A stretch of 64,000 nt of DNA from assembly GCF_900142935.1 (NCBI RefSeq), contig NZ_FSRS01000001.1, positions 2,428,001 through 2,492,000 on the forward strand. The letters are read 5' to 3'. The translations under genes were made by a program, and so were the position numbers. This DNA is from Rhodovulum sp. ES.010. Lineage in GTDB: Bacteria > Pseudomonadota > Alphaproteobacteria > Rhodobacterales > Rhodobacteraceae. The notes beneath the pieces were generated by a model. It was not told the origin of the DNA. It made no database searches and saw only the letters and a list, made by a program, of their open reading frames with translations. This document shows positions 4,087 through 19,942 of the stretch, piece by piece (the stretch's first letter is position 1; every line of letters begins with the position of its first letter).

Positions 4087-5954
4087 CAGACGGCCTCCTC
4101 GGGGTGCAGGCAGCGCACGGCGCGCGGCGCGGTGCCCTCCAGCGGGATGGCGCCCTGGCGGCAATCCTCCTGCGCCTTGTCGCAGCGGGGTGCGAAGGCG
4201 CAGCCCTCGGGCAGATTGTCGACCACCGGCGGCAGGCCCGGGATCGAGGCGAGCTTGCGCTTGCCGGTGCCGAGTTCCGGCACGCAGGCGATCAGGCGCT
4301 TGGTGTAGGGATGCGCGGGGGCGTCGAGCACCTGCCTCGTCGGACCCTCCTCGACGATGCGGCCGGCATACATCACCGCCACCCGGTCGCAAAGCTGTGC
4401 CACCACGCCGAAATCGTGGGTGATGAAGATGATCGCCAGCCCCCGCTCGCGCCGCAGGTCATCGAGCAGCGCGAGGATTTGCGCCTGCACCGTGACGTCG
4501 AGCGCCGTGGTCGGCTCGTCGGCGATGATCACGTCGGGGTCGTTGGCCATCGCCATCGCGATGCCCACCCGCTGGCGCATTCCGCCCGACATCTCGTGCG
4601 GGTAATTGCCGAGCCGGCTTTCCGCATTGGGGATGCGCACCGCCGTCAACAGGTCCAGCGCCTTGGCGCGGGCCGCCCGGTCGGACGTGTCGTGATGCAC
4701 GCGGATCGCCTCGACCAACTGGTCGCCCACCTTGTAGAGCGGGTGCAGCGTCGCCAGCGGGTCCTGGAAGATATAGGCCACGTTCTCGCCCCGGCGGCGG
4801 CGCAGCCGTTCGTAGCGCGCGCCCAGCAGGTCCTCGCCCGCGTAGCGCACCGCGCCGCCGGTGATCACCCCCGGCGGCGAGGGCACGAGCCCCATGACCG
4901 ACAGCGCGGTGACCGACTTGCCCGACCCGGATTCGCCGATCACGCCGACGCATTCGCCGGGCTTTACGTGCAGCGACACCCCGCCCACCGCGCGATAGAC
5001 CCGCGTGCCGACATGGAACTGGGTTTCCAGCGCGTCGAGGTCCAGAAGGCCGCGCTGCTCGGCCGCCGGCACCGGCCCCTTGCGGTCGACCAGCGTCACC
5101 GCCCGCGGCCGCGACAGCGCGCCCGATTTCAGCCGCGGGTCCAGCGCGTCCCGCACCCCGTCGCCCAGCAGGTTGATGCTCATCACGATCAGGAAGATCA
5201 TCACGCCCGGCACGATCGAGGTATGGGGCGCCGTGATCAGCGCCGCCCGCGCCTCGCCCAGCATCGAACCCAGATCGGCCACCGGCGGCTGCGAGCCGAG
5301 CCCGAGGAAGGAAAGCCCCGCGGTTTCCAGGATCATCCAGCCCACCGTGGTCGACATCGCGATGACGATGGTCGAAAGCACGTTCGGCAAAAGCTCGCCG
5401 ACCAGGATGCGGGTATGGCCGAGGCCCGAGAGCTTCGCCGCGTCGATGAACTCGCGCCCCGCCAGCCCCACGGTGATTCCGCGGATGTTCCGGGCGAAGA
5501 AGGGGATGTTGACCGCCGCCACCGCGATCAGCGCGTTCATCAGCCCAGGGCCGAGGGCCGCGACGATGGCCAGCGCCAGCAAGATGTAGGGAAACGCCAT
5601 CAGCATGTCGATGCCGCGCATGATGACGTTGTCGATCCGCCCGCCGAAATAGCCCGCGACAATGCCGATGGTCGACCCGATCGTCGCCGCGATCAGCGCC
5701 GCGGCGATGCCCACGGCCAGCGACAGCCGCGTCCCATGTAGAAGCCGCGAAAGCAAGTCGCGGCCCAGGTGATCGGTGCCGAGGACATGCCCCTCGGTGA
5801 ACGGCCGCGCGAAGCGGTCTGCGGTCGCGGTCGCGTTCGGGTCGGGCAGCGGCAGAAGCGGTGTCACCAACACGAGGATCAGGATCGCACCCAGCACCAC
5901 CGCGCCCAGCGCGGCCAGGCGGTTGCGGAACAGGAGTTTCAGGAACTGCGCCAT
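4086..5954 (-). CDS. Fused DppC permease and DppD ATPase of a peptide-type ABC transporter
   Basis: One continuous 622-residue frame carries two normally separate subunits. Residues 1 to about 282 are a DppC-type permease: N-terminal helix, periplasmic segment, then five helices, with the ATPase-contact EAA loop around 168-191 ([16 protein letters not shown]). After a linker of about 30 residues ([20 protein letters not shown]) comes a complete DppD ATPase: Walker A GESGSGKS at 340-347, signature MSGGMRQR, Walker [13 protein letters not shown] and the cysteine-rich oligopeptide C-terminus. The start chosen is MAQFLKLL at 5954, eight bases after dppB; an upstream in-frame ATG (6026) would overlap dppB and gives a non-homologous leader. 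Such fusions occur in this transporter family, so this looks like a functional fusion, not an error. Confidence 0.9.
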
Positions 5955-10751: not shown

Positions 10752-11519
10752 ATGGACAGACGGACAGCGATTCTAGAGACGGCGCAAAGCCAGGGACGTG
10801 TCACGGTCGACCGCCTGGCCGCGCAATTCGGAGTGTCGGCCCATACGATCCGACGCGATCTCAACGCGCTCTGCGAGGAAGCGAAGCTGCGGCGGTTGCA
10901 CGGGGGCGCCGAGTTCATCGACGGCAGCGCCAACATGCCCTACGCGGCGCGCGCGATCCTGAACCTGGAGGCGAAGCAGGCAATCGCGACCACGGTCGCG
11001 AAGATGGTCTTTGACGGCGCAACCGTCTTCATCTCGATTGGGACGACGCCGGCCATCGTTGCCCGTGCCCTGCTGGCGAAGGAGGGGCTGACCGTCATCA
11101 CGAACAATCTCAACGCGGCGATGACCCTGTCGGAGAACGCCACCTGCCGGATCATCCTGCCCGGTGGCGAAATGCGCCTACCGGACCGGGACTTTCTCAA
11201 CGCCGCGGCGATCGGCCTGTTCGATGCCTACAGGGCGGATTTCGGGATTTTCGGCGTCGGCGGCATCGACGAGGACGGCAGCCTGCTGGATTTCCACGCG
11301 CCCGAGGTGGCCGCCCGCGAAGCGATCCGCAGAAACAGCCGACGCGCCGTTTTGGTGGCCGACCACACCAAGTTCGGGCGCCGCGCCGCGGCCGTGGGCG
11401 GTCGCCTAGACGAGCAGGACCTCGTGGTGCTCGATTCCCGGCCGCAGCCTCCGTTCGCAGCATTGCTTCCCCCCATCGCGGCGCGTCTCGTCATTGCGGA
11501 CCAGGAGCGGCCGAGATGA
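10752..11519 (+). CDS. DeoR/GlpR-family transcriptional regulator of the ugp-like operon
   Basis: This 255-residue regulator has an N-terminal DeoR helix-turn-helix (RVTVDRLAAQFGVSAHTIRR, residues about 17-36, then the wing RLHGGAEF) and a C-terminal DeoRC sugar-phosphate sensor domain (FISIGTTPAIVARAL, LTVITNNLNAA, DFGIFGVGGID). ATG 10752 follows a GAGG ribosome site; an in-frame ATG 57 bases upstream gives an extra leader outside the HTH and is less likely. Its last four bases overlap the start of the ATPase gene, so it leads the transporter operon. DeoR proteins usually respond to phosphorylated sugars, consistent with repression of this importer until substrate is present. Confidence 0.9.
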   Translation: MDRRTAILETAQSQGRVTVDRLAAQFGVSAHTIRRDLNALCEEAKLRRLHGGAEFIDGSANMPYAARAILNLEAKQAIATTVAKMVFDGATVFISIGTTPAIVARALLAKEGLTVITNNLNAAMTLSENATCRIILPGGEMRLPDRDFLNAAAIGLFDAYRADFGIFGVGGIDEDGSLLDFHAPEVAAREAIRRNSRRAVLVADHTKFGRRAAAVGGRLDEQDLVVLDSRPQPPFAALLPPIAARLVIADQERPR

Positions 11520-12616
11520 GCGAGGAGCCTTATGTTGCGCTGTCGGAGGTGACGCGCCAATGGGCCGGGCACGGGGGCGTGCGCGACATCTCGCTCGACG
11601 TCACGCGGGGCAGCTTCGTGTCCGTTCTCGGCCCGTCCGGCTGCGGGAAATCGACCCTGTTGCGCCTGATTTCGGGGTTGGAGCGCCCCGAGGCGGGCCG
11701 CGTGCATATCGCCGGTCGCGACGTAACCCACCTGCAAGCCTCGCGCCGGGGTCTGTCGATGGTGTTCCAGTCCTATGCCCTGTTCCCGCACCTGAACGTC
11801 CGCGAGAACATCCTGTTCGGCATGCGGGTGCGGCGCGCATCGCGGCACGAGTGCGCGGCCAAGCTCGCCGACGCCGTCGAGATGCTGGGGCTCGCGGGGC
11901 TGGAGGGGCGCAAACCCGCGGCGCTCTCGGGCGGTCAGCGGCAGCGCGTCGCCCTGGCCCGCGCCGTTGTGTCGGGCCACCCACTGTGCCTGATGGATGA
12001 GCCGCTGTCCAACCTCGACGCCAAGCTGCGGCACTCGGTGCGCCGCGACATCAAGACGTTGCAACGGCGGCTCGGTCTGACGGTCGTCTACGTGACCCAC
12101 GACCAGACCGAGGCGATGTCGCTGTCGGACAAGGTGGTGCTGATGCGCCAAGGCCGGGTCGAACAGATCGGCGCGCCCGAGGCGCTTTATGCCGCCCCTG
12201 TCAGCAGCTTCGCCGCCGAGTTCATCGGCGATCCGCCGATGGCGATGATCGATGGCGCGGCGCTGGGCGCACCCGGCGCGCGGGTCGGCATCCGCCCGGC
12301 GCACCTGACCATCGCCGAGCCGCGCCGGGCCGATCTGGAAGGCACGGTCCGCGACGTCGAGTACATGGGCGCGCACACCCACATCGTGATCGACCATCCG
12401 GCCGCGCGCGGGCTGGTGATCTCCGTCCAGGGGCATGCCGACCGGCGTCCGGGCGAGGCCATCGGGCTGGTGCTGCCGCGGGAACACCGGGTCCTTTTCG
12501 ACGCCGACACCGGTCGGGTCAAAAAGGACCCGCAGCAGGATTGCGGGACCAACCATCGCCAAACGGGACCCCGCGATAGCCGCAAGGCACTTCAACCCCA
12601 TCCGTCAAACGATTGA
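11516..12616 (+). CDS. ugpC: ABC transporter ATPase, UgpC/MalK type
   Basis: This 366-residue ATPase powers carbohydrate-class (CUT1) importers. Walker A is GPSGCGKS (about residues 39-46), the Q-loop is VFQSYALFPHLNVREN, the signature is LSGGQRQR, Walker B is LCLMDEPLSNLDAKLR and the H-loop is THDQTEAM. A C-terminal OB-like regulatory domain follows (GIRPAHLTIAEP). The last 30 or so residues (KKDPQQDCGTNHRQ...) look like non-conserved read-through to the next stop. It overlaps the DeoR gene by four bases (ATGA) and precedes the binding protein by 12 bases. The ugp name reflects similarity; MalK-like ATPases of other sugars are hard to exclude. Confidence 0.85.
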   Translation: MSEEPYVALSEVTRQWAGHGGVRDISLDVTRGSFVSVLGPSGCGKSTLLRLISGLERPEAGRVHIAGRDVTHLQASRRGLSMVFQSYALFPHLNVRENILFGMRVRRASRHECAAKLADAVEMLGLAGLEGRKPAALSGGQRQRVALARAVVSGHPLCLMDEPLSNLDAKLRHSVRRDIKTLQRRLGLTVVYVTHDQTEAMSLSDKVVLMRQGRVEQIGAPEALYAAPVSSFAAEFIGDPPMAMIDGAALGAPGARVGIRPAHLTIAEPRRADLEGTVRDVEYMGAHTHIVIDHPAARGLVISVQGHADRRPGEAIGLVLPREHRVLFDADTGRVKKDPQQDCGTNHRQTGPRDSRKALQPHPSND

Positions 12617-12628
12617 AGAGGAAGACCC

Positions 12629-13891
12629 ATGCTGCGCTATGCACCTGCCACCGTCATGCTCGCCGCGAGCACGGCGCTTGTCAATCCGGCCGCGGCCGAG
12701 ACCGAACTGACCATGTATTACCCCATCGCCGTGGGCGGACCGCTGACCCAGGTGGTCGACGGGATCGTCGCCGAGTTCGAGGACCGGAACCCCGACATCA
12801 CCGTCAACGCGATCTATGCCGGCAATTACGACGACACCCGCATCAAGGCGCTGTCGGCGCTGAACTCGGGCGATCCGGCACAGCTGGCCGTGATGTTCTC
12901 GATCGACGTCTACGACCTGATCGAGCAAGACCTGATCGTGCCCTTCGACGACGTGGTCGAGACCGAAGAAGAGCGTGCGTGGCTGGACAGCTTCTACCCC
13001 GCGCTGATGGCCAATGGCACCGTCGAGGGCCAGACATGGGGCGTGCCCTTCCAGCGTTCGACCATCGTGGCCTACTACAACAAGGACATGTTCCGCGACG
13101 CCGGGCTCGCCCCCGAAAAGGCGCCGACGACGTGGGACGAGATGGTCGAGATGGGCAGGGCGCTGACCACCGACGACCGCTGGGGCCTGATGATCCCGTC
13201 GACCGGCTACCCCTACTGGATGTTCCAGGCGCTGGCGATCCAGAACGGCAAGGAGTTGATGTCCGATGACGGGCTCACCACCTATTTCGACGCCCCGGCG
13301 GTGGTGGACACGCTGGCGTTCTGGAAATCGCTTTCGACCGAGCATGGCATCATGCCCGAGGGCACGGTCGAATGGGGCACGCTGCGCCAGGCTTTCCTCG
13401 AGGGGCAGACCGCGATGATGTGGCATTCCACCGGCAACCTGACCGCGGTCAAGGACAACGCGGAGTTCGATTTCGGGGTCGCCATGCTGCCCGCGAACGG
13501 GCGCCTGGGGTCGCCCACCGGCGGCGGCAACTTCTACCTCTTCAAGGACTCGACCGACGAAGAGAAGCAGGCCGCGCTGAAACTGATCAAGTTCATGACC
13601 TCGCCCGAGCAGGCCGCCGAATGGTCGATCGCCACCGGCTACATGGGCGTCTCGCCGGCGGCGTATGAAACCGAGGCACTGAAGGCCTATACCGCCGAGT
13701 TCCCGCCCGCGCTGGTCGCGCGCGATCAGCTGGACCACGCGGTGGCCGAGTTCTCGACCTTCGAGACCGCTCGCGTGCGCGAGGGGCTGAACAACGCGAT
13801 CCAGGCCGCGCTGACCGGCACCAAGTCGCCGGAAGAGGCACTGGGCGAGGCGCAGGCCGCCGCCGAACGCCTGCTGTCGGCCTACCAGTAA
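12629..13891 (+). CDS. ugpB: Carbohydrate/glycerol-phosphate ABC substrate-binding protein (UgpB-like)
   Basis: This 420-residue periplasmic protein is of solute-binding family 1. A signal peptide covers about residues 1-23 (cleavage after AAA). The mature part shows the UgpB pattern: the VDGIVAEFEDRNPDITV opening, a GNYDDTRIKALSAL segment, an NGTVEGQTWGVPFQRSTIVAYYNKDMFRDAG hinge region and GGGNFYLFKDS near residue 295, which resembles the UgpB GGxxxW/Y phosphate-ligand region. The ligand is probably sn-glycerol-3-phosphate, a glycerophosphodiester or a sugar. It is third in the operon, followed 52 bases later by the first permease. Confidence 0.85.
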   Translation: MLRYAPATVMLAASTALVNPAAAETELTMYYPIAVGGPLTQVVDGIVAEFEDRNPDITVNAIYAGNYDDTRIKALSALNSGDPAQLAVMFSIDVYDLIEQDLIVPFDDVVETEEERAWLDSFYPALMANGTVEGQTWGVPFQRSTIVAYYNKDMFRDAGLAPEKAPTTWDEMVEMGRALTTDDRWGLMIPSTGYPYWMFQALAIQNGKELMSDDGLTTYFDAPAVVDTLAFWKSLSTEHGIMPEGTVEWGTLRQAFLEGQTAMMWHSTGNLTAVKDNAEFDFGVAMLPANGRLGSPTGGGNFYLFKDSTDEEKQAALKLIKFMTSPEQAAEWSIATGYMGVSPAAYETEALKAYTAEFPPALVARDQLDHAVAEFSTFETARVREGLNNAIQAALTGTKSPEEALGEAQAAAERLLSAYQ

Positions 13892-13943
13892 GCCGATGCA
13901 CCGGCGCCGGGTCCGCCCGGCGCCGGCACACGAAAGGCCGCGC

Positions 13944-14837
13944 ATGTCCGACCAAGCCGCCCTATGCCGCCGCCGGCAGGCCATCCATGGATGGCTGCTG
14001 CTGACGCCCGCGCTCGTGATGCTGACGACCTTCGCCTTCTACCCCACGGTCGCGACGGTCTGGACCAGCCTGTTCTCCCGCGGCACAAGGCGGCGGCCCG
14101 CGGAGTTCGTCGGGGCCGAGAACTACCAGCGGCTGTTCGACGACCCGACCTTCTGGCTGGTGGTCAAGAACAACCTCTTCTACGCGGGCGTAACGATCCC
14201 GATTTCCATCGCGATCGCGCTGGCCATGGCGCTTTGGGCCAATTCCAGGATCCCCGCGCGCAGCTTCGTGCGCACCGCCTATTTCACGCCGACGGTCCTG
14301 CCGATGATAGCAGCGGGCAACCTGTGGCTGTTCTTCTACACCCCCGGTTTCGGCGTGCTCGACCAGATCGGCGCGCTGTTCGGCGCAGGGTCCGTCAACT
14401 GGCTGGGCCAGCCGGAAACCGCGCTCTGGGCGGTCTGCGCGGTGACGATCTGGAAGGAGGCGGGGTTCTTCATGATATTCTACCTTGCCGCGCTGCAGAC
14501 CATCCCGCCCGACCTGAAGGAGGCCGCCGAGATCGAGGGCGCCTCCCGCTGGGCTTATACGCGGCGGGTGGTGCTGCCGCTGTTGATGCCGACGACGCTG
14601 TTCATCCTGGTCAACGCGATGATCAACTCGGTCAAGCTGATCGATCATCTGTTCATCCTGACCAAGGGCGGGCCGTCGGATGCCTCGAAACTCATCCTCT
14701 ACTACATCTGGGAAAACGCCTTCGCCTTCTTCGACGCGCCGGCGGCCGCGGCGATGACGATGCTGGTGCTCTGCGTGCTCGGCGCCCTCGCCGCCTTCCA
14801 GTTCTTCGTCATCGACCGCCGGACCCACTACAGATGA
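13944..14837 (+). CDS. ugpA: Carbohydrate ABC permease, UgpA-like
   Basis: This is a 297-residue six-helix permease of the MalF/UgpA class. It contains IHGWLLLTPALVMLTTFAFYP as helix 1, the PISIAIALAMALWAN helix, the ATPase-contact EAA loop in LKEAAEIEGASRWAYTRRVVLPLL, and the family-typical LFILTKGGPSDAS segment before the last helix. The ATG at 13944 was chosen over one at 13896, which adds a proline/arginine-rich leader. Its stop overlaps the start of ugpE by four bases. Confidence 0.88.
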   Translation: MSDQAALCRRRQAIHGWLLLTPALVMLTTFAFYPTVATVWTSLFSRGTRRRPAEFVGAENYQRLFDDPTFWLVVKNNLFYAGVTIPISIAIALAMALWANSRIPARSFVRTAYFTPTVLPMIAAGNLWLFFYTPGFGVLDQIGALFGAGSVNWLGQPETALWAVCAVTIWKEAGFFMIFYLAALQTIPPDLKEAAEIEGASRWAYTRRVVLPLLMPTTLFILVNAMINSVKLIDHLFILTKGGPSDASKLILYYIWENAFAFFDAPAAAAMTMLVLCVLGALAAFQFFVIDRRTHYR

Positions 14838-15640: not shown

Positions 15641-15731
15641 GACGAGGGCCGGTGGCAGCAGGGCGCGGCGGTCTTTCCCGTGTCGTTCATGGCGCGCGCC
15701 CGGTTTCGGCCAAGCCGCCCGGTTCATGCGG

Positions 15732-15756
15732 ACCGCGGGCGGTTGGCCCGCGGTTT
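15732..15756. terminator. Hairpin terminator between convergent ugpE and cytochrome b561 genes
   Basis: A perfect 9-bp GC-rich stem (15732-15740 with 15746-15754) has a 5-nt loop and a short T-run on the plus strand. It lies between two converging transcripts and is placed to end the ugp operon. Within the 130-bp gap nothing else is evident. Confidence 0.55.
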
Positions 15757-15770
15757 GCCATGTTTCGCGT

Positions 15771-16415
15771 TCAGGCGCGCTTGTCTCCGGTGATCATCGC
15801 GTGGGCGAGGTTTTCGCGATGGACCATGCTGGCCCAGGCCACGCCGCCGACATGCAGCAGGATCAAGAGCACGGAGAGGTTCGCGGCGGTCTCGTGGATG
15901 TCCTCCCACGCGGTCTCGCCGCCCGCGTGGCCCTCGCGTTCCTCATGTTCCTGGCGCTCGTAGCTTGCGACGCCGCCCTCGCCGCCGCTCTCGCTCTGCG
16001 CGATCAGCCCGGCCAGCGGACCTTCGCCTTCCTCTTCGGCCAGCACCGCCATGCCGGAAAACGCGGTGGCGCCCAGCATGACCAGGAGCGCCACGGTCAT
16101 CGCGCCGCCGGCGGGGCTGTGGCCTATATGGCGTTCGGCCGAGCCCGCGACCAGCCGCTTGAGATAGGCGACGACCTTGCCGGGCCCGGTCACGAAGTCG
16201 GAGAAGCGCGCGCGCTCGGGCCCCACGAGGCCCCAGAAGATGCGCAGCGTCACCGTGGCCGCGATCGCGTAGCCGGCCCAGACATGGAGCCATTCCGGCT
16301 CGCCCTCGGTGAGGTAGGCGGTGGCGAAACCCGCCACCAGGACCCAGTGCCCGACGCGCACCACCGGGTCCCAGACCCGGACGCGCGCCTCGGCTTGCGC
16401 CGTCTGCTCCGCCAT
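15771..16415 (-). CDS. Cytochrome b561 family di-heme membrane protein
   Basis: This 214-residue inner-membrane cytochrome has four predicted helices and the histidines expected for two b-type hemes: VGHWV in helix 1, LHVWAGY in helix 2, and HETAANLSVLLILLHVGG in the last helices. Members of this family oxidise or reduce quinone, superoxide or periplasmic cytochromes. A long acidic, Glu/Gly/His-rich loop (about residues 135-175) separates helices 3 and 4, unusual for the short E. coli homologue. The gene follows a PepSY gene with a one-base overlap and is divergent from the PepSY two-component operon. The start MAEQTAQAE at 16415 is set by that overlap. Confidence 0.85.
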   Translation of the reverse strand: MAEQTAQAEARVRVWDPVVRVGHWVLVAGFATAYLTEGEPEWLHVWAGYAIAATVTLRIFWGLVGPERARFSDFVTGPGKVVAYLKRLVAGSAERHIGHSPAGGAMTVALLVMLGATAFSGMAVLAEEEGEGPLAGLIAQSESGGEGGVASYERQEHEEREGHAGGETAWEDIHETAANLSVLLILLHVGGVAWASMVHRENLAHAMITGDKRA

Positions 16416-16714
16416 CAGTCGTCGTCCCGGCCGAGGCGGGTCGCGGGGGCGCCGGTGGCCGGATCCAGATAGGCCTCGACCACCATCCCGTTGGCGTCGC
16501 GCATCTTGACCTCCCAGTAGCGGCCGTCCTCGCGCTCGGCCTCGAGGACGGTGTAGCCCTGGCTCTCCAGTTTCGCGATCAGCTCGCCGAGCGGCATCCA
16601 CCGGGCGGGCTGGGCCATCGCGGGTGCGGTTTCGGGCGAGGCTTGCGCCTCGCCGAGGGCGACCAGGCCCGCGGCGGAAGCCAGGGCGGCGGTGAACAGG
16701 ATCGTGCGTTTCAT
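16415..16714 (-). CDS. Secreted PepSY-domain protein (partner of cytochrome b561)
   Basis: This is a 99-residue exported protein: a signal peptide over residues 1-25 (MKRTILFTAALASAAG..., cleavage after AQA), then one PepSY_2-type domain with the pattern LIAKLESQGYTVLEAEREDGRYWEV...GMVVEAYLDPATGAP. PepSY domains are small periplasmic ligand or inhibitor domains found beside redox proteins and sensor kinases. Its TGA shares a base with the ATG of the cytochrome gene. It probably modulates the cytochrome or carries its signal to the adjacent sensor (inference). Confidence 0.82.
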   Translation of the reverse strand: MKRTILFTAALASAAGLVALGEAQASPETAPAMAQPARWMPLGELIAKLESQGYTVLEAEREDGRYWEVKMRDANGMVVEAYLDPATGAPATRLGRDDD

Positions 16715-16789
16715 GGGGGTCTCCCGTGCTTGGTTTCACCTTGCCGGCACGTGGACCGGCTGCGATGGGACCGGTCTATCCGCAGGCGC

Positions 16790-16828
16790 CTGACGCCGGC
16801 CTGACCGCGCTTGTCAGCGCCCTGTCAG
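16790..16828. promoter_or_regulatory. Four-half-site operator array, CTGAC-N6-CTGAC-N7-GTCAG-N6-GTCAG
   Basis: Half-sites begin at 16790, 16801, 16813 and 16824: two direct repeats with 11-bp phasing, followed by the same pair inverted. The layout is symmetric while the bases between half-sites are not, which points to protein binding rather than an RNA stem. It lies in the divergent promoter region between the PepSY-cytochrome unit (start 16714) and the PepSY-regulator-kinase unit (start 16853). Direct repeats one helical turn apart are typical of OmpR-family response regulators, so the regulator at 17152-17823 is the obvious candidate (inference). Confidence 0.7.
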
Positions 16829-16852
16829 GCGGGGCAGAGTAGCGCCGTCACC

Positions 16853-17152
16853 ATGAAACGGTTCGCTCTCCTCGCCTCGATCCTGGTCCTCGCCGCGCCC
16901 GCGCCGGCCGAGCGCGATCACGACCGCGCGCGCCGCGCCCTTGAACGGGGCGAGATCCGGCCCCTGCACAGAATCCTGCCCGAGGTGGAAGACCGTTTCG
17001 ACGCGCGGCTTCTGGAGGTCGAGCTGGAACGCGAGGAGGGCCGCCTGGTCTACGAGATGGAACTGATCACGCGGGACGGACGACTTCTGGAGGTGCTCGT
17101 CGACGCCGCCTCGGGCCAGGTGCTGGAGCACGAGATCGAGGACGACGACTGA
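16853..17152 (+). CDS. Secreted PepSY-domain protein leading the two-component operon
   Basis: This 99-residue protein has a signal peptide (MKRFALLASILVLAAPAPA) and a single short PepSY domain (EIRPLHRILPEVEDRF...LLEVELEREEGRLVYEMELI...GRLLEVLVDAASGQVLE). The C-terminus is acidic (HEIEDDD). ATG 16853 is chosen because it places the signal peptide at the N-terminus; the frame extends 14 codons further upstream into the operator array. The stop overlaps the regulator ATG by one base. Periplasmic PepSY proteins in such operons are thought to tune the sensor kinase. Confidence 0.85.
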   Translation: MKRFALLASILVLAAPAPAERDHDRARRALERGEIRPLHRILPEVEDRFDARLLEVELEREEGRLVYEMELITRDGRLLEVLVDAASGQVLEHEIEDDD

Positions 17153-17823
17153 TGCGCGTGCTCGCCGTCGAGGACGACCCGCGGATCGCGGCCGACCTGT
17201 CGGCCGCGCTGGAAGCCGCGGGGTTCCGCGTGGAAACCTGCGCCGATGGCGAGGAGGCGTGGTTCCTGGGCGATACCGAGGCGTACGGGCTGGTGGTTCT
17301 GGATCTCGGCCTGCCGGGGCTCGACGGGCTGACGGTCCTGAAACGCTGGCGCGCGAACGGGCGCGAGATGCCGGTTCTGGTGCTGACCGCGCGCGGCACC
17401 TGGACGGAACGCGTCGAGGGCATCGACGCCGGCGCCGACGACTACCTGCCCAAACCGTTCCGGATGGAGGAGCTGGTGGCCCGCGCCCGCGCGCTGGTGC
17501 GCCGCTCGGCGGGGCGCGGCAGCGCGCTGCAGGAGGCGGGCGCGCTCGCGCTCGACACGACCCGCATGGCGGTCAGCTTGCGCGGCGTGCCGGTGCAGAC
17601 CACGGCGCTGGAGTATCGCCTGCTCGCCTACCTGATGCTCAACCGCGACCGCGTGGTGCCGCCCACGGAACTGCTGGAACACCTCTACGGCGACGACGAT
17701 GCGCGCGAGGCCAACGCGCTGGAGGCGCTGGTGGCGCGGCTGCGGCGCAAGCTGGGCGCGGGCGTGATCGGCACGCGCCGCGGCTTCGGCTATTTCCTCG
17801 AAGCCGGGGCGCCCGCGCCGTGA
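17152..17823 (+). CDS. OmpR-family response regulator
   Basis: This 223-residue transcription factor has a receiver domain with Asp8/Asp9, phosphoacceptor Asp51 (VVLDLGLPGLDG), Thr79 and Lys101 (LPKPF), then a winged-helix DNA-binding domain from about residue 125 (LEYRLLAYLMLNRDRVVPPTELLEHLYGDD, ending LRRKLG...IGTRRGFGYFLE). It resembles the QseB/PmrA/FeuP group. It is co-transcribed with PepSY upstream (one-base overlap) and with the kinase downstream (GTGA overlap). It is the likely ligand of the arrays at 16790-16828 and 19164-19202. Confidence 0.93.
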   Translation: MRVLAVEDDPRIAADLSAALEAAGFRVETCADGEEAWFLGDTEAYGLVVLDLGLPGLDGLTVLKRWRANGREMPVLVLTARGTWTERVEGIDAGADDYLPKPFRMEELVARARALVRRSAGRGSALQEAGALALDTTRMAVSLRGVPVQTTALEYRLLAYLMLNRDRVVPPTELLEHLYGDDDAREANALEALVARLRRKLGAGVIGTRRGFGYFLEAGAPAP

Positions 17824-19178
17824 GGCGGCTGTCGCTGCGGCTGCGGCTGGCGCTGGCCGGGGCGGTCGCGGTGACGCTCGCGATCCTCTTGTCCTCGCTG
17901 GGGCTCGCCGCGCTCTTCGGCGCGCATGTCGAACGCCGCGCGCTGGCCGAACTCTCGGTGCAGCTCGACCAGGTGCTGGCCGGGGTCGAGCGCGCCCCCG
18001 ACGGCACGCTGGAACTGACGACCGCCCCCGCCGATCCGCGCTTCCGGCAGGTCTATGGCGGGCTCTACTGGCAGATCGAGGCGGGCGGGCAGGTGCTGCG
18101 CGCGCGCGCGCTCTGGGATTACGAAATCCCGCTGCCCGCCGACACGCTGGGCGACGGGGCCGAGCATGTGCACGACCTGCCGGGCCCGGCGGGCCAGCCG
18201 CTGCTGGCGATCGAGCGCAGCGTGACCCTGCCCGACCGGCTGGGCGGCGACGCGATGCGCGCGGCCGTGGCGATGGACCGGACGGACCTCGCCGCCGCGC
18301 GCGCCGGGTTCCTGCGCGACCTCATCCCCTATTCGGCGCTGCTCGCGGCGGCGCTGATCCTCGCGGGCTGGGCGCAGATCGCCGTGGGTCTCCGCCCGCT
18401 CGGCGCGATCCGCGCCCGCGTGGCCGATATCCGCACCGGCCGGGCGCGTCGCGTGGGGGGCGATGTCCCCGCCGAGGTGCAGCCGCTCGCCGCCGAGGTC
18501 GACGGCCTGCTGGCCGCCCGCGAACAGGAGGTCGCGCGCGCCCGCACCCGGGCGGGCGACCTCGCGCACGGGCTCAAGACGCCGCTCCAGGCGCTGATGG
18601 GCGAGGCCGGGCGGCTCCGGGCCGAGGGGCGCGGTGCCGCGGCCGACGCGGTCGAGGAGATCGCCGGCGCGATGCGCGCCCATGTCGACCGCGAGCTTGC
18701 GCGCACCCGCGTCGCCATGCGGGGGCGCCAGGGCCGCGCCGACCTTGCCGATGTCGTCGCGGGGCTCGTGCGGGTCATGCGCCGCACCGGGGAAGGGGCG
18801 CGGTGCGACTGGCGCGTGGACCTGCCCGAAGGTCTCGCGGTCGCCGCCGATCCCGGCGACCTCTCCGAGGCGCTGGGGGCGCTGATCGAAAACGCCGCGC
18901 GCCATGCCCGCACGCGGGTCGAGATCGGCGCGCAGCCCCGCGGGGGCCGGGTCCAGATCGTCCTCCGCGACGACGGCCCCGGCATCCCGCCCGACCGGAT
19001 CGACGCGCTGATGGCGCGCGGCGCGCGGGCCGACACCCGCGGCTCGGGCCTCGGCCTCGCCATCGCGCGCGACATCGCCGAGGCGCTGGACGGCACGCTT
19101 TCGCTGCGCCCGGCCTCGCCCGGGCTCGAGGCGCGCCTGTCCCTGCCCGCAGCCGACAGCGTCCTGACAGATCGCTGA
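17820..19178 (+). CDS. Sensor histidine kinase of the PepSY two-component system
   Basis: This 452-residue membrane kinase starts at a GTG that overlaps the regulator stop. Helix 1 covers about residues 8-32, a periplasmic sensor of roughly 130 residues follows, and helix 2 is at about 168-190. A HAMP-like linker is followed by the phosphoacceptor His250 in DLAHGLKTPLQALMGE, the N-box ENAARHA, the G1 box DDGPGIP and the G2 box GSGLGLAIARDI. The F-box is weak, as in QseC/PhoQ-type kinases. The last codons and stop lie inside the second operator array. Confidence 0.92.
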   Translation: MRRLSLRLRLALAGAVAVTLAILLSSLGLAALFGAHVERRALAELSVQLDQVLAGVERAPDGTLELTTAPADPRFRQVYGGLYWQIEAGGQVLRARALWDYEIPLPADTLGDGAEHVHDLPGPAGQPLLAIERSVTLPDRLGGDAMRAAVAMDRTDLAAARAGFLRDLIPYSALLAAALILAGWAQIAVGLRPLGAIRARVADIRTGRARRVGGDVPAEVQPLAAEVDGLLAAREQEVARARTRAGDLAHGLKTPLQALMGEAGRLRAEGRGAAADAVEEIAGAMRAHVDRELARTRVAMRGRQGRADLADVVAGLVRVMRRTGEGARCDWRVDLPEGLAVAADPGDLSEALGALIENAARHARTRVEIGAQPRGGRVQIVLRDDGPGIPPDRIDALMARGARADTRGSGLGLAIARDIAEALDGTLSLRPASPGLEARLSLPAADSVLTDR

Positions 19179-19202
19179 CACCCCGGGTCAGCCCGGTGTC
19201 AG
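19164..19202. promoter_or_regulatory. Second four-half-site operator array, same spacing as at 16790-16828
   Basis: CTGAC begins at 19164 and 19175, and GTCAG at 19187 and 19198, reproducing exactly the 11-12-11 spacing of the array before the operon. It covers the last codons and the stop of the kinase gene. The inner arms also form a hairpin (GCTGACACC with GGTGTCAGC, 19174-19203) that could help end the transcript. The 272-base stretch after it (19179-19450) holds no convincing protein gene; an unannotated small RNA is possible. Confidence 0.6.
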
Positions 19203-19450
19203 CCACCCCGTGCGATGACCGCCGCGGTTGAGGCGTAGGACGCGCGCGACAGCGCGGAGCGGTTTCGGCGAGGACCTTGCCAATGGCGGTTGATCGGCGT
19301 TGATCGCGAAGGCCGGCCAAAGTGGGGACGCGCGCAGACATCGGGTTCTGTTGCGAACCGCCTGCCTTCCACACCGCAAGCGTCCGGTGGGACGCATCCT
19401 CGTTCCCGACAGGGCCTGCGTTTGGCGCATGGCCCCGTCCGACCGCACGA

Positions 19451-19942
19451 TCATCCGTCCGGTTGCGGCATAACGCTGAGCGCCTGGCCGTTGCTCCAGA
19501 CCACCGCCTCGTAGCAGACTTGGGCGCCGGCCCCGCCGCACCACCCGCCATCCCGCGCGATGAGCAGGATCGGGCGGCCGTCCCACTCGACCATCCGCCA
19601 GCCTTCCGCCTGGAAGGAGCGCACGGCATCCTCGACAACGGCATGCAGCATGCAGCCCCCCGAACCGCAATAGGCCGACATCATCGACGAACAGGAAAAA
19701 GCGCTTTCGTCCACGATACGGTCAATCGGCTCCTGACCGTCGAGATTCATCTCGCGAACAGCGGCGCCGGCGTCGAAGCGGCCGTTCTCGTAGCTCTCGC
19801 AAAAGGCGCGGGCCTCGCCGAGGATCGCGGCGACCGGGTCGGCCTGCTGTGCGGACGCACCCGCCGCGGCCAAGGACAGGCCTATGCAGGCAAGCAGCCC
19901 GCCGGCCGTAGCGGTGACGGGGCCAAGTTGTCTGGGGGTCAT
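19451..19942 (-). CDS. Hypothetical secreted cysteine-containing protein
   Basis: I do not recognise this 163-residue protein. It has a convincing signal peptide (about residues 10-32, ending ASAQ), and the mature part contains seven cysteines, including FSCSSMMSAYCGSGGCML and WCGGAGAQVC. That suggests disulfide bonds in the periplasm. The C-terminal half (GWRMVEWDGRPILLIARDGG) looks globular. It stands alone on the minus strand, upstream of a small stress-type membrane protein gene, and its 3' end faces the two-component operon. Confidence 0.7.
   Translation of the reverse strand: MTPRQLGPVTATAGGLLACIGLSLAAAGASAQQADPVAAILGEARAFCESYENGRFDAGAAVREMNLDGQEPIDRIVDESAFSCSSMMSAYCGSGGCMLHAVVEDAVRSFQAEGWRMVEWDGRPILLIARDGGWCGGAGAQVCYEAVVWSNGQALSVMPQPDG

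Follow-up and report, generated by a model that had tools for sequence, protein, structure and literature searches.

Mirror-paired GTCAG direct repeats as predicted operators of a PepSY two-component operon and an SHP cytochrome operon in Rhodovulum

The window, the whole 64,000-nucleotide stretch of Rhodovulum sp. ES.010 DNA that was analysed, contains two divergent transcription units. On the + strand lie genes for a presumably periplasmic PepSY-domain protein (16853..17152, chosen ATG start; PF03413, E 2.8e-11), a response regulator (17152..17823) and a sensor histidine kinase (17820..19178, chosen start codon; PF02518). On the - strand a gene for a PepSY_2 protein, again presumably periplasmic (16415..16714; PF13670, E 1e-15), is followed by a second for a cytochrome b561 family membrane protein (15771..16418, chosen start codon; PF01292, E 1.7e-22). 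The regulator combines a receiver domain (PF00072, E 3.8e-27) with a C-terminal winged helix (PF00486, Trans_reg_C, E 1.6e-17), domains that place it in the OmpR/PhoB family, and it has full-length matches to 1kgs, 4s04 (BasR) and others; its scores fall below the NCBIfam cut-offs for PmrA (192 against 330 bits), QseB (176 against 345) and PhoB (146 against 296). The kinase carries GGLYWQ and RARALWD, variants of the periplasmic motifs SGVYWQ and RSRSLWD of the SK1 kinases.

An initial annotation of this DNA had described two identical arrays of the form CTGAC-N6-CTGAC-N7-GTCAG-N6-GTCAG, with half-site starts spaced 11-12-11, one between the divergent units and one over the kinase stop codon. 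A pattern scan of the window recovers both with 0 mismatches and with precisely this spacing, array 1 at 16790-16828 and array 2 at 19164-19202, the latter overlapping the stop codon of a kinase frame that ends at 19178; no further match with up to 3 mismatches is found in the window, and none of 100 dinucleotide shuffles matches. A search of all 3.83 Mb of the genome gives the exact pattern in 4 places only, which correspond to the two arrays in each of two copies of the segment discussed below, along with one additional site with 2 mismatches (C1:93001), and a backwards control pattern has no match anywhere in the genome. The unit of the array is the direct repeat GTCAG-N6-GTCAG, and the full array is two such units in mirror orientation. 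The arrays are identical in half-sites and spacing, but in array-1-type and array-2-type sequences mismatches fall at different places.

The annotation had further held that the bases between half-sites are not self-complementary, which is not wholly right for array 2 because it contains a perfect 9-bp inverted repeat (19174-19182/19195-19203). It could be imagined from this stem that array 2 is a terminator-like RNA hairpin or a product of coding constraint, with array 1 a coincidence. A terminator scan, however, called none at array 2, the half-sites and their spacing recur in relatives, where the 9-bp stem, judged by eye, is not among the features common to the arrays, and the arrays of SHP operons in four genomes (G051, G301, G303, G295) lie away from any kinase end. 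The comparative data thus already refute this explanation.

The position of array 2, with no + strand gene recognised directly past it in a mechanical list of open reading frames, had led to proposals of DNA looping across the operon, of a roadblock where the kinase gene ends or of a small RNA in 19203-19450. A different picture emerges from the rest of the genome. The segment 15714..19219 is present a second time (G000:C1:3164670-3168175), the two copies of 3506 bp aligning without gaps at 99.857% identity, and the 5 mismatches between them, all inside 19004-19101, argue against an assembly error. The window copy ends 17 bp past array 2. At the second location this array is followed, after 59 bp, by an operon encoding a cytochrome b561/diheme cytochrome c fusion, a DUF1924 protein and a diheme cytochrome c, with matches to PF01292, PF09086 (DUF1924) and, twice, PF09626; we take DUF1924 to be SHP, the sphaeroides heme protein. 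The window copy has none of these SHP operon genes, and array 2 also stands upstream of the cytochrome operon in other Rhodovulum species.

These alignments are best read as a recent, incomplete duplication, with array 2 of the window copy driving nothing recognisable; array 2 is very probably a promoter operator orphaned by the duplication. It seems purposeless in the window as a result of the duplication, whose edge falls right after it, and since it fronts the SHP operon in the other copy neither looping, nor a roadblock, nor a small RNA is needed to account for it. The two operons, regulator and SHP, are moreover on separate contigs in G051 (contigs C5 and C4) and G301 (C1 and C2), each operon with an array, so that looping is not required. 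As to a small RNA, a TGCGAA-type element that is conserved after SHP-type arrays (here TGCGATG, 19211..19217, + strand), a presumed -10 region, is retained within the duplicated piece and could give rise to a stray transcript, but the sequence past 19219 is outside the duplicated segment and in 16600-19700 no Rfam match up to E 1 lies past array 2, the sole match being a sub-threshold one within the kinase gene (17.8 bits, gathering score 65.3). We consider all three proposals highly improbable.

In order to establish how the arrays are distributed we have scanned relatives, gathering arrays under a mismatch limit by which all half-site counts given here are bounded. Among 295 genomes of the family an array with at most 1 mismatch occurs in 15, and the backwards control in none. 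All 15 belong to the 19 genomes with a close kinase (best match 1.3e-83 or better, a cut set afterwards at a gap, the next best match being 3.6e-67) and likewise to the 49 with any kinase match at 1e-30, corresponding to hypergeometric p values, calculated ignoring shared ancestry, of 6.5e-22 and 2.7e-13, respectively. Within the genus the array is found in 7/7 genomes with the close kinase and 0/9 without. Where an SHP operon is present, an array (at most 2 mismatches) precedes it in 8 of 9 genomes that possess the close kinase, as against none of 5 that do not (p 0.003; for family genomes alone 3/4 against 0/5, p 0.048; kinship ignored in both), where the single-repeat search at the five operons without the kinase covered 180-345 bases upstream. 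An exact direct repeat pointing at the gene is present within 700 bp upstream of 18 of the 19 close regulator genes. G170 is without an exact repeat, and its one array has 3 mismatches. For the 30 more distant kinase matches 8 were retrieved and 7 tested, G008 being excluded for its short contig, and none of the 7 has an upstream direct repeat even at 1 mismatch.

The arrays sit upstream of the regulator operon or of the SHP operon. Mirror repeats abutting at N7 are seen beside such operons in 31 genomes, 29 of which form the regulator-operon set used below: 14 of the 15 family genomes, 2 of 12 named loci (Roseicyclus and Poseidonocella; the distant L088-L093 were left out), 5 of 6 other array-bearing Rhodovulum and, besides the genome studied here, 6 of 7 matches from a class-level and 2 of 3 from a phylum-level scan. 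The other two are G130, whose array comes after the kinase gene, at a place where no SHP operon is present, and was excluded as not preceding the operon, and G303, where the array stands between, and would serve, cytochrome b561-PepSY-regulator-kinase genes and SHP and is counted only within a set of 8 SHP arrays; a second SHP array of G051 (2 mismatches) is outside these 8. Three sets of sites were set aside as chance, since no related operon adjoins them: one in G551, excluded from the class and phylum counts alike, one in G297 (contig C19, 3 mismatches), and the same 2-mismatch site found twice on contig C2 of G303 near genes that we read as TetR-like and oxidoreductase-like. The backwards control itself gave single matches in 1 genome each of the class, phylum and genus scans, the last with 3 mismatches.

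The initial annotation was prepared to give up its reading if the pattern proved abundant at random in the genome or was not conserved at either position in related species; the array is rare and is conserved at both positions. The idea of a protein operator with dimer-type half-sites is supported as a prediction, and so is divergent control by array 1, which is flanked on both sides by -10-like elements; what is lost from the earlier interpretation is the looping, the roadblock and the dedicated small RNA at array 2.

It might be argued that a different DNA-binding protein recognises the arrays and that the kinase/regulator operon is merely one of its targets, as contact between regulator and array is deduced from sequence. 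Against this, arrays in the family and genus scans are confined to genomes that possess a close relative of the kinase, and the 11-base spacing of half-sites fits OmpR/PhoB dimers, as in the ArcA boxes described in PMC3798270, making another binder improbable. A comparison of recognition helices did not cleanly separate relatives with arrays from those without, and nothing is drawn from it.

In the window a -10-like TA lies at offset 12-13 past array 1 on the PepSY-regulator-kinase side (16840..16841, + strand) and another at the same offset outward on the PepSY_2/cytochrome b561 side (16777..16778, - strand). In the regulator-operon set a TA begins at offset 12 from the array end in 23/29 cases and an A is at 13 in 28/29, no other offset between 1 and 26 having TA in more than 3/29; on the mirror side A is at 13 in 27/29 and TA at 12 in 12/29. 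Because the PepSY ATG is at offset 25 from the end of array 1 the PepSY-regulator-kinase message may be leaderless, and an ATG is at offset 21-28 in 26/29 arrays, the misses being G401, G687 and G648. In SHP-type arrays offset 10 is G in 8/8, and T (offset 9) and A (offset 13) are found in 7/8; the TGCGAA presumed to be their -10 departs widely from the standard consensus. The far repeat is perfect in 8/8 of these, yet 7/8 are without a -10-like TA on that side. Two genomes depart from the fused layout: in G225 both promoters retain a single direct repeat apiece, and in G046 the two repeats stand at a distance from one another and a TA lies at offset 12 from each.

PhoB-dependent promoters have a spacing typical of OmpR/PhoB-type activation, with a direct repeat replacing the -35 region. 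The arrays could instead be operators at which the encoded regulator represses, to be relieved by a signal or by dephosphorylation; the operon-proximal half-sites do cover the presumed -35 region, and dimers bound to an array between two promoters could also exclude polymerase. A repeat in the -35 place with a -10 at a fixed 12 bases nevertheless resembles activation of the PhoB kind, and a consensus scan of 16600-19700 in the window found no sigma-70-type promoter, so repression appears unlikely. We infer that the regulator binds the arrays, that it activates rather than represses, and that binding is cooperative.

Taken together, we assign a probability of roughly 85% to the arrays being operators through which the encoded regulator acts as activator of the SHP operon as well as of its own. 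In the mechanism that we propose a phosphorylated regulator dimer would occupy GTCAG-N6-GTCAG, a pattern that fits direct repeats with half-sites about one helical turn apart; the bound repeat would replace or overlap the -35 region, with the -10 beginning 12 bases past it, and transcription would be activated from there. Because most operators have two repeats back to back in mirror orientation two dimers could bind, probably cooperatively. Two units would then be read divergently from array 1, the regulator's own PepSY-regulator-kinase operon, by autoactivation, and PepSY_2-cytochrome b561. Array 2 of the ancestral locus copy would serve the operon for the cytochrome b561/diheme cytochrome c fusion, SHP and the second diheme cytochrome c. 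The regulator thereby very probably controls nearby genes for oxygen-binding cytochromes through paired operators. More speculatively, and with considerable doubt, the four half-sites may form a two-way switch, a regulator tetramer firing two equidistant promoters, one with a leaderless message, and the Rhodovulum regulon may comprise the SHP pathway and possibly nifB, linking SHP to the protection or control of nitrogen fixation.

A recognisable operator turns a suspected SK1-SHP link into a defined, testable regulon, including in genomes where the two are apart, and one repeat, two fused mirror repeats and two separated repeats offer a natural series on how OmpR/PhoB-type promoters are built. 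Our literature search found no published description of this operator or regulon. At PmrA/BasR, QseB and PhoB operators, which lie close to the -35 region, short half-sites recur in direct orientation with spacers of 5-6 bp; the present arrays differ in their half-site, GTCAG, and in their mirror-paired layout. A site of the type bound by UzcR of Caulobacter, like ours the spaced two-part site of an alphaproteobacterial two-component regulator, was rejected, its CATTAC-N6-TTAA (reviewed in PMC8963506) being unrelated to GTCAG.

The link between SHP and the SK1 kinase, and regulation of SHP by SK1, were proposed in 2010 (Meyer et al., PMC2909971). The SHP operon of that paper resembles ours in gene order, with SHP, a soluble diheme cytochrome c and a fusion of cytochrome b to a membrane diheme cytochrome c like that of Rb. 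sphaeroides. Its Orf1/RR/SK1 cluster is likewise similar, in that a kinase with SK1-like motifs and a response regulator lie beside the SHP genes and a small protein gene precedes the regulator. Here a PepSY gene precedes the regulator, and our guess is that Orf1 is the PepSY protein. The same paper proposes a divergent promoter for Rhodospirillaceae, reports no regulatory genes observed with SHP in Rhodobacteraceae and does not contain the words 'operator' or 'PepSY'; here, in contrast, several Rhodovulum genomes have the regulator operon next to SHP, elsewhere it sits on another contig, and the two operons have a candidate operator in common. A likeness in layout is seen with ArcA of E. coli, an OmpR/PhoB-family regulator whose boxes, according to PMC3798270, are direct-repeat elements 11 bp apart, with between three and five elements at many sites. 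A second, weaker two-repeat site is present at dctA on the opposite strand, 24 bp away, whereas the repeats described here abut at N7 in mirror orientation.

The initial annotation placed the array, CTGAC-N6-CTGAC-N7-GTCAG-N6-GTCAG, at positions 16790-16828, before the operon for PepSY, response regulator (RR) and histidine kinase (HK), and at 19164-19202, over the kinase stop codon, and a pattern scan returns both, with no site within 3 mismatches elsewhere in the window and a match in 0 of 100 shuffles of its sequence. The whole genome (G000; 3,832,939 bases) contains just four exact copies of the pattern, along with one further site carrying 2 mismatches, and a backwards control pattern has no match. 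The second pair starts at C1:3165746 and 3168120 (C1 being a contig), with the same spacing of 2,374 bases as in the window. That there are four places instead of two is due to duplication of a 3,506-bp block containing both arrays (window 15714-19219; second copy G000:C1:3164670-3168175), the copies differing by 5 mismatches, all within 19004-19101, in the final stretch of the kinase gene; this accounts simply for the odd second array. The arrays are real and conserved, and we put at roughly 85% the probability that they are operators through which the regulator encoded between them activates transcription, a value that allows for the post hoc kinase cut and the single matches of the backwards control described below. 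The regulator is of a known type; no description of this layout was found in the literature searched.

The duplication is recent and partial, and the two-component system is present in full in both copies. One edge of the block lies 57 bp past the stop codon of cytochrome b561, and the other lies 17 bp beyond array 2, the one over the kinase stop codon. In the other copy (extracted locus L039) 59 bp separate the end of array 2 from a downstream cytochrome b561/diheme cytochrome c fusion gene (L039 10219-11340), followed by the sphaeroides heme protein gene (SHP, DUF1924; 11340-11729), a second diheme cytochrome c gene (DHC; 11749-12180) and a P-type ATPase gene (12277-14175). The common order, cytochrome b561, PepSY_2, array, PepSY, RR, HK, array, cytochrome b561, DHC, SHP, DHC, is found as well in R. 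euryhalinum (L082) and R. robiginosum (L083), and we therefore take L039 as ancestral and the window copy as truncated, which explains the lack of a gene after array 2 in the initial annotation. The block took along the presumed -10 element of array 2 (19211-19217), so a stray transcript could run toward convergent reading frame 19451-19942, with no evident purpose.

The array is kept in related genomes together with the kinase. Of 295 family genomes, 49 match the window kinase at 1e-30 or better, and 19 of these do so at no weaker than 1.3e-83 (the close kinase, cut at a gap above the next best value of 3.6e-67 and chosen after the arrays were seen). All 15 family genomes whose array has 1 mismatch or none (backwards control 0/295) fall among these 19 (p 6.5e-22) and among the 49 (p 2.7e-13), kinship being ignored in both values; the other four close-kinase genomes are G182, with GTCAG three times in tandem, G170, with a 3-mismatch array only, and G225 and G046, whose single or separated repeats are described below. 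Within the genus, an array with up to 3 mismatches is present in 7 of 16 genomes (the control matches one, G297), and the close kinase is present in exactly these 7; one of the nine others, G308, has a distant kinase match (3.6e-23). Matches number 8/385 in the class, own genome included (control 1); six of the other seven adjoin RR-HK genes, with PepSY detected in five of these, and G551 lacks such neighbors. The phylum scan gives 4/398 (own, G551 and two more, both adjoining PepSY-RR-HK; control 1), with no match in genomes listed outside the class.

SHP is present in 9/295 family and 6/16 genus genomes, the window's own in both counts. Where it accompanies the close kinase, 8 of 9 distinct genomes have an array (at most 2 mismatches) before the SHP operon and the ninth, G225, has a single exact repeat there; the five SHP genomes without the close kinase have none, their best sites in the locus showing 7 or 8 mismatches and the 180-345 bases of upstream sequence searched containing no GTCAG-N6-GTCAG repeat within 1 mismatch (p 0.003, or 0.048 with family genomes alone). 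Regulator and SHP operons lie on different contigs in G051 and G301, with an array at each. Several other arrangements are seen. In G303 one array (L112 6250-6288), with TAAA next to one end and TGCGAAA next to the opposite end, is common to two divergent operons, one for cytochrome b561-PepSY-RR-HK and one for SHP; G051 has two arrays (starting 68 bases apart at L119 8137 and 8205, with 1 and 2 mismatches) ahead of one SHP operon; and in G130 an array (L024 5833-5871) follows the kinase gene with no SHP operon there, and the open frame that comes next (5125-5787 on the minus strand) resembles, in our reading, an RTX-type repeat protein.

Counting bases outward from the array end, TA stands at offset 12-13 on the PepSY side of 23 of 29 regulator-operon arrays (A at 13 in 28) and in at most 3 at any of the remaining offsets between 1 and 26. 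The mirror side has A at 13 in 27/29 and TA at 12 in 12/29. Were this TA the -10 box, half-sites 3 and 4 would fall near -39 to -35 and -28 to -24, occupying the place of the -35 element, and the transcript would begin at the PepSY start codon or immediately beside it. This codon lies at offset 21-28 in 26/29 operons, and because it sits where transcription should begin, these operons and window 16829-16853 suggest a leaderless PepSY message. The SHP-type arrays (n=8) have a conserved TGCGAA-like stretch at offsets 9-14 in place of TA, and on their far side TA appears at offset 12 in G303 only, where the divergent operon sits. Half-sites 1 to 4 are intact in 27, 16, 29 and 27 of the 29 regulator arrays and in 8, 8, 5 and 6 of the 8 SHP arrays, counts bounded by the limits used in gathering them (at most 1 mismatch; SHP, at most 2). 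The weak half-site is thus the second in regulator arrays and the two nearest the operon in SHP arrays, a difference that could let the promoters respond at different regulator levels.

Natural variants bear on the binding unit. G046 has two repeats 61 bp apart in opposite orientation, each with TA at offset 12, and G225 has one exact repeat before the regulator operon, with TAAGAA at offset 12, and one remaining before the SHP operon, so that the unit appears to be the direct repeat, and the array a pair of such units set back to back. The second unit is kept in 7 of 8 SHP promoters without a recognizable second promoter, which speaks for two dimers binding the array together.

Arrays with 1 or 2 mismatches also lie between nifA (named from our reading of the ORFs) and nifB in four Rhodovulum genomes (G000, G295, G297, G299), 156 to 214 bases ahead of nifB, which encodes radical SAM and Nitro_FeMo-Co domains; they are at G000:C1:93001-93039 (L094 5002), L106 6195, L107 6096 and L108 5749. 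Such an array precedes nifB in 4/6 evaluable close-kinase genomes vs 0/8 without the close kinase (p 0.015, kinship ignored; G306, with nifB at a contig edge, and G298, with no nifB match, left out). The G000 array has no TA at offset 12. In G000 and G297 it is followed by a common TGTCGCGTTTCCGAC stretch, which we take to resemble a NifA upstream site. The nifB gene is a possible third target, offered as a lead and no more.

The domain pair of OmpR/PhoB proteins is present in the regulator, which matches full-length regulators of solved structure and falls below every NCBIfam cut-off among the matches listed (25 of 92). In the kinase, GGLYWQ and RARALWD are variants of the SK1 motifs described by Meyer et al. 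2010 (PMC2909971). There SK1 is linked to SHP by gene neighborhood in other families, and regulatory genes with SHP are given as not observed in Rhodobacteraceae; with the present data the SK1-SHP link now reaches that family.
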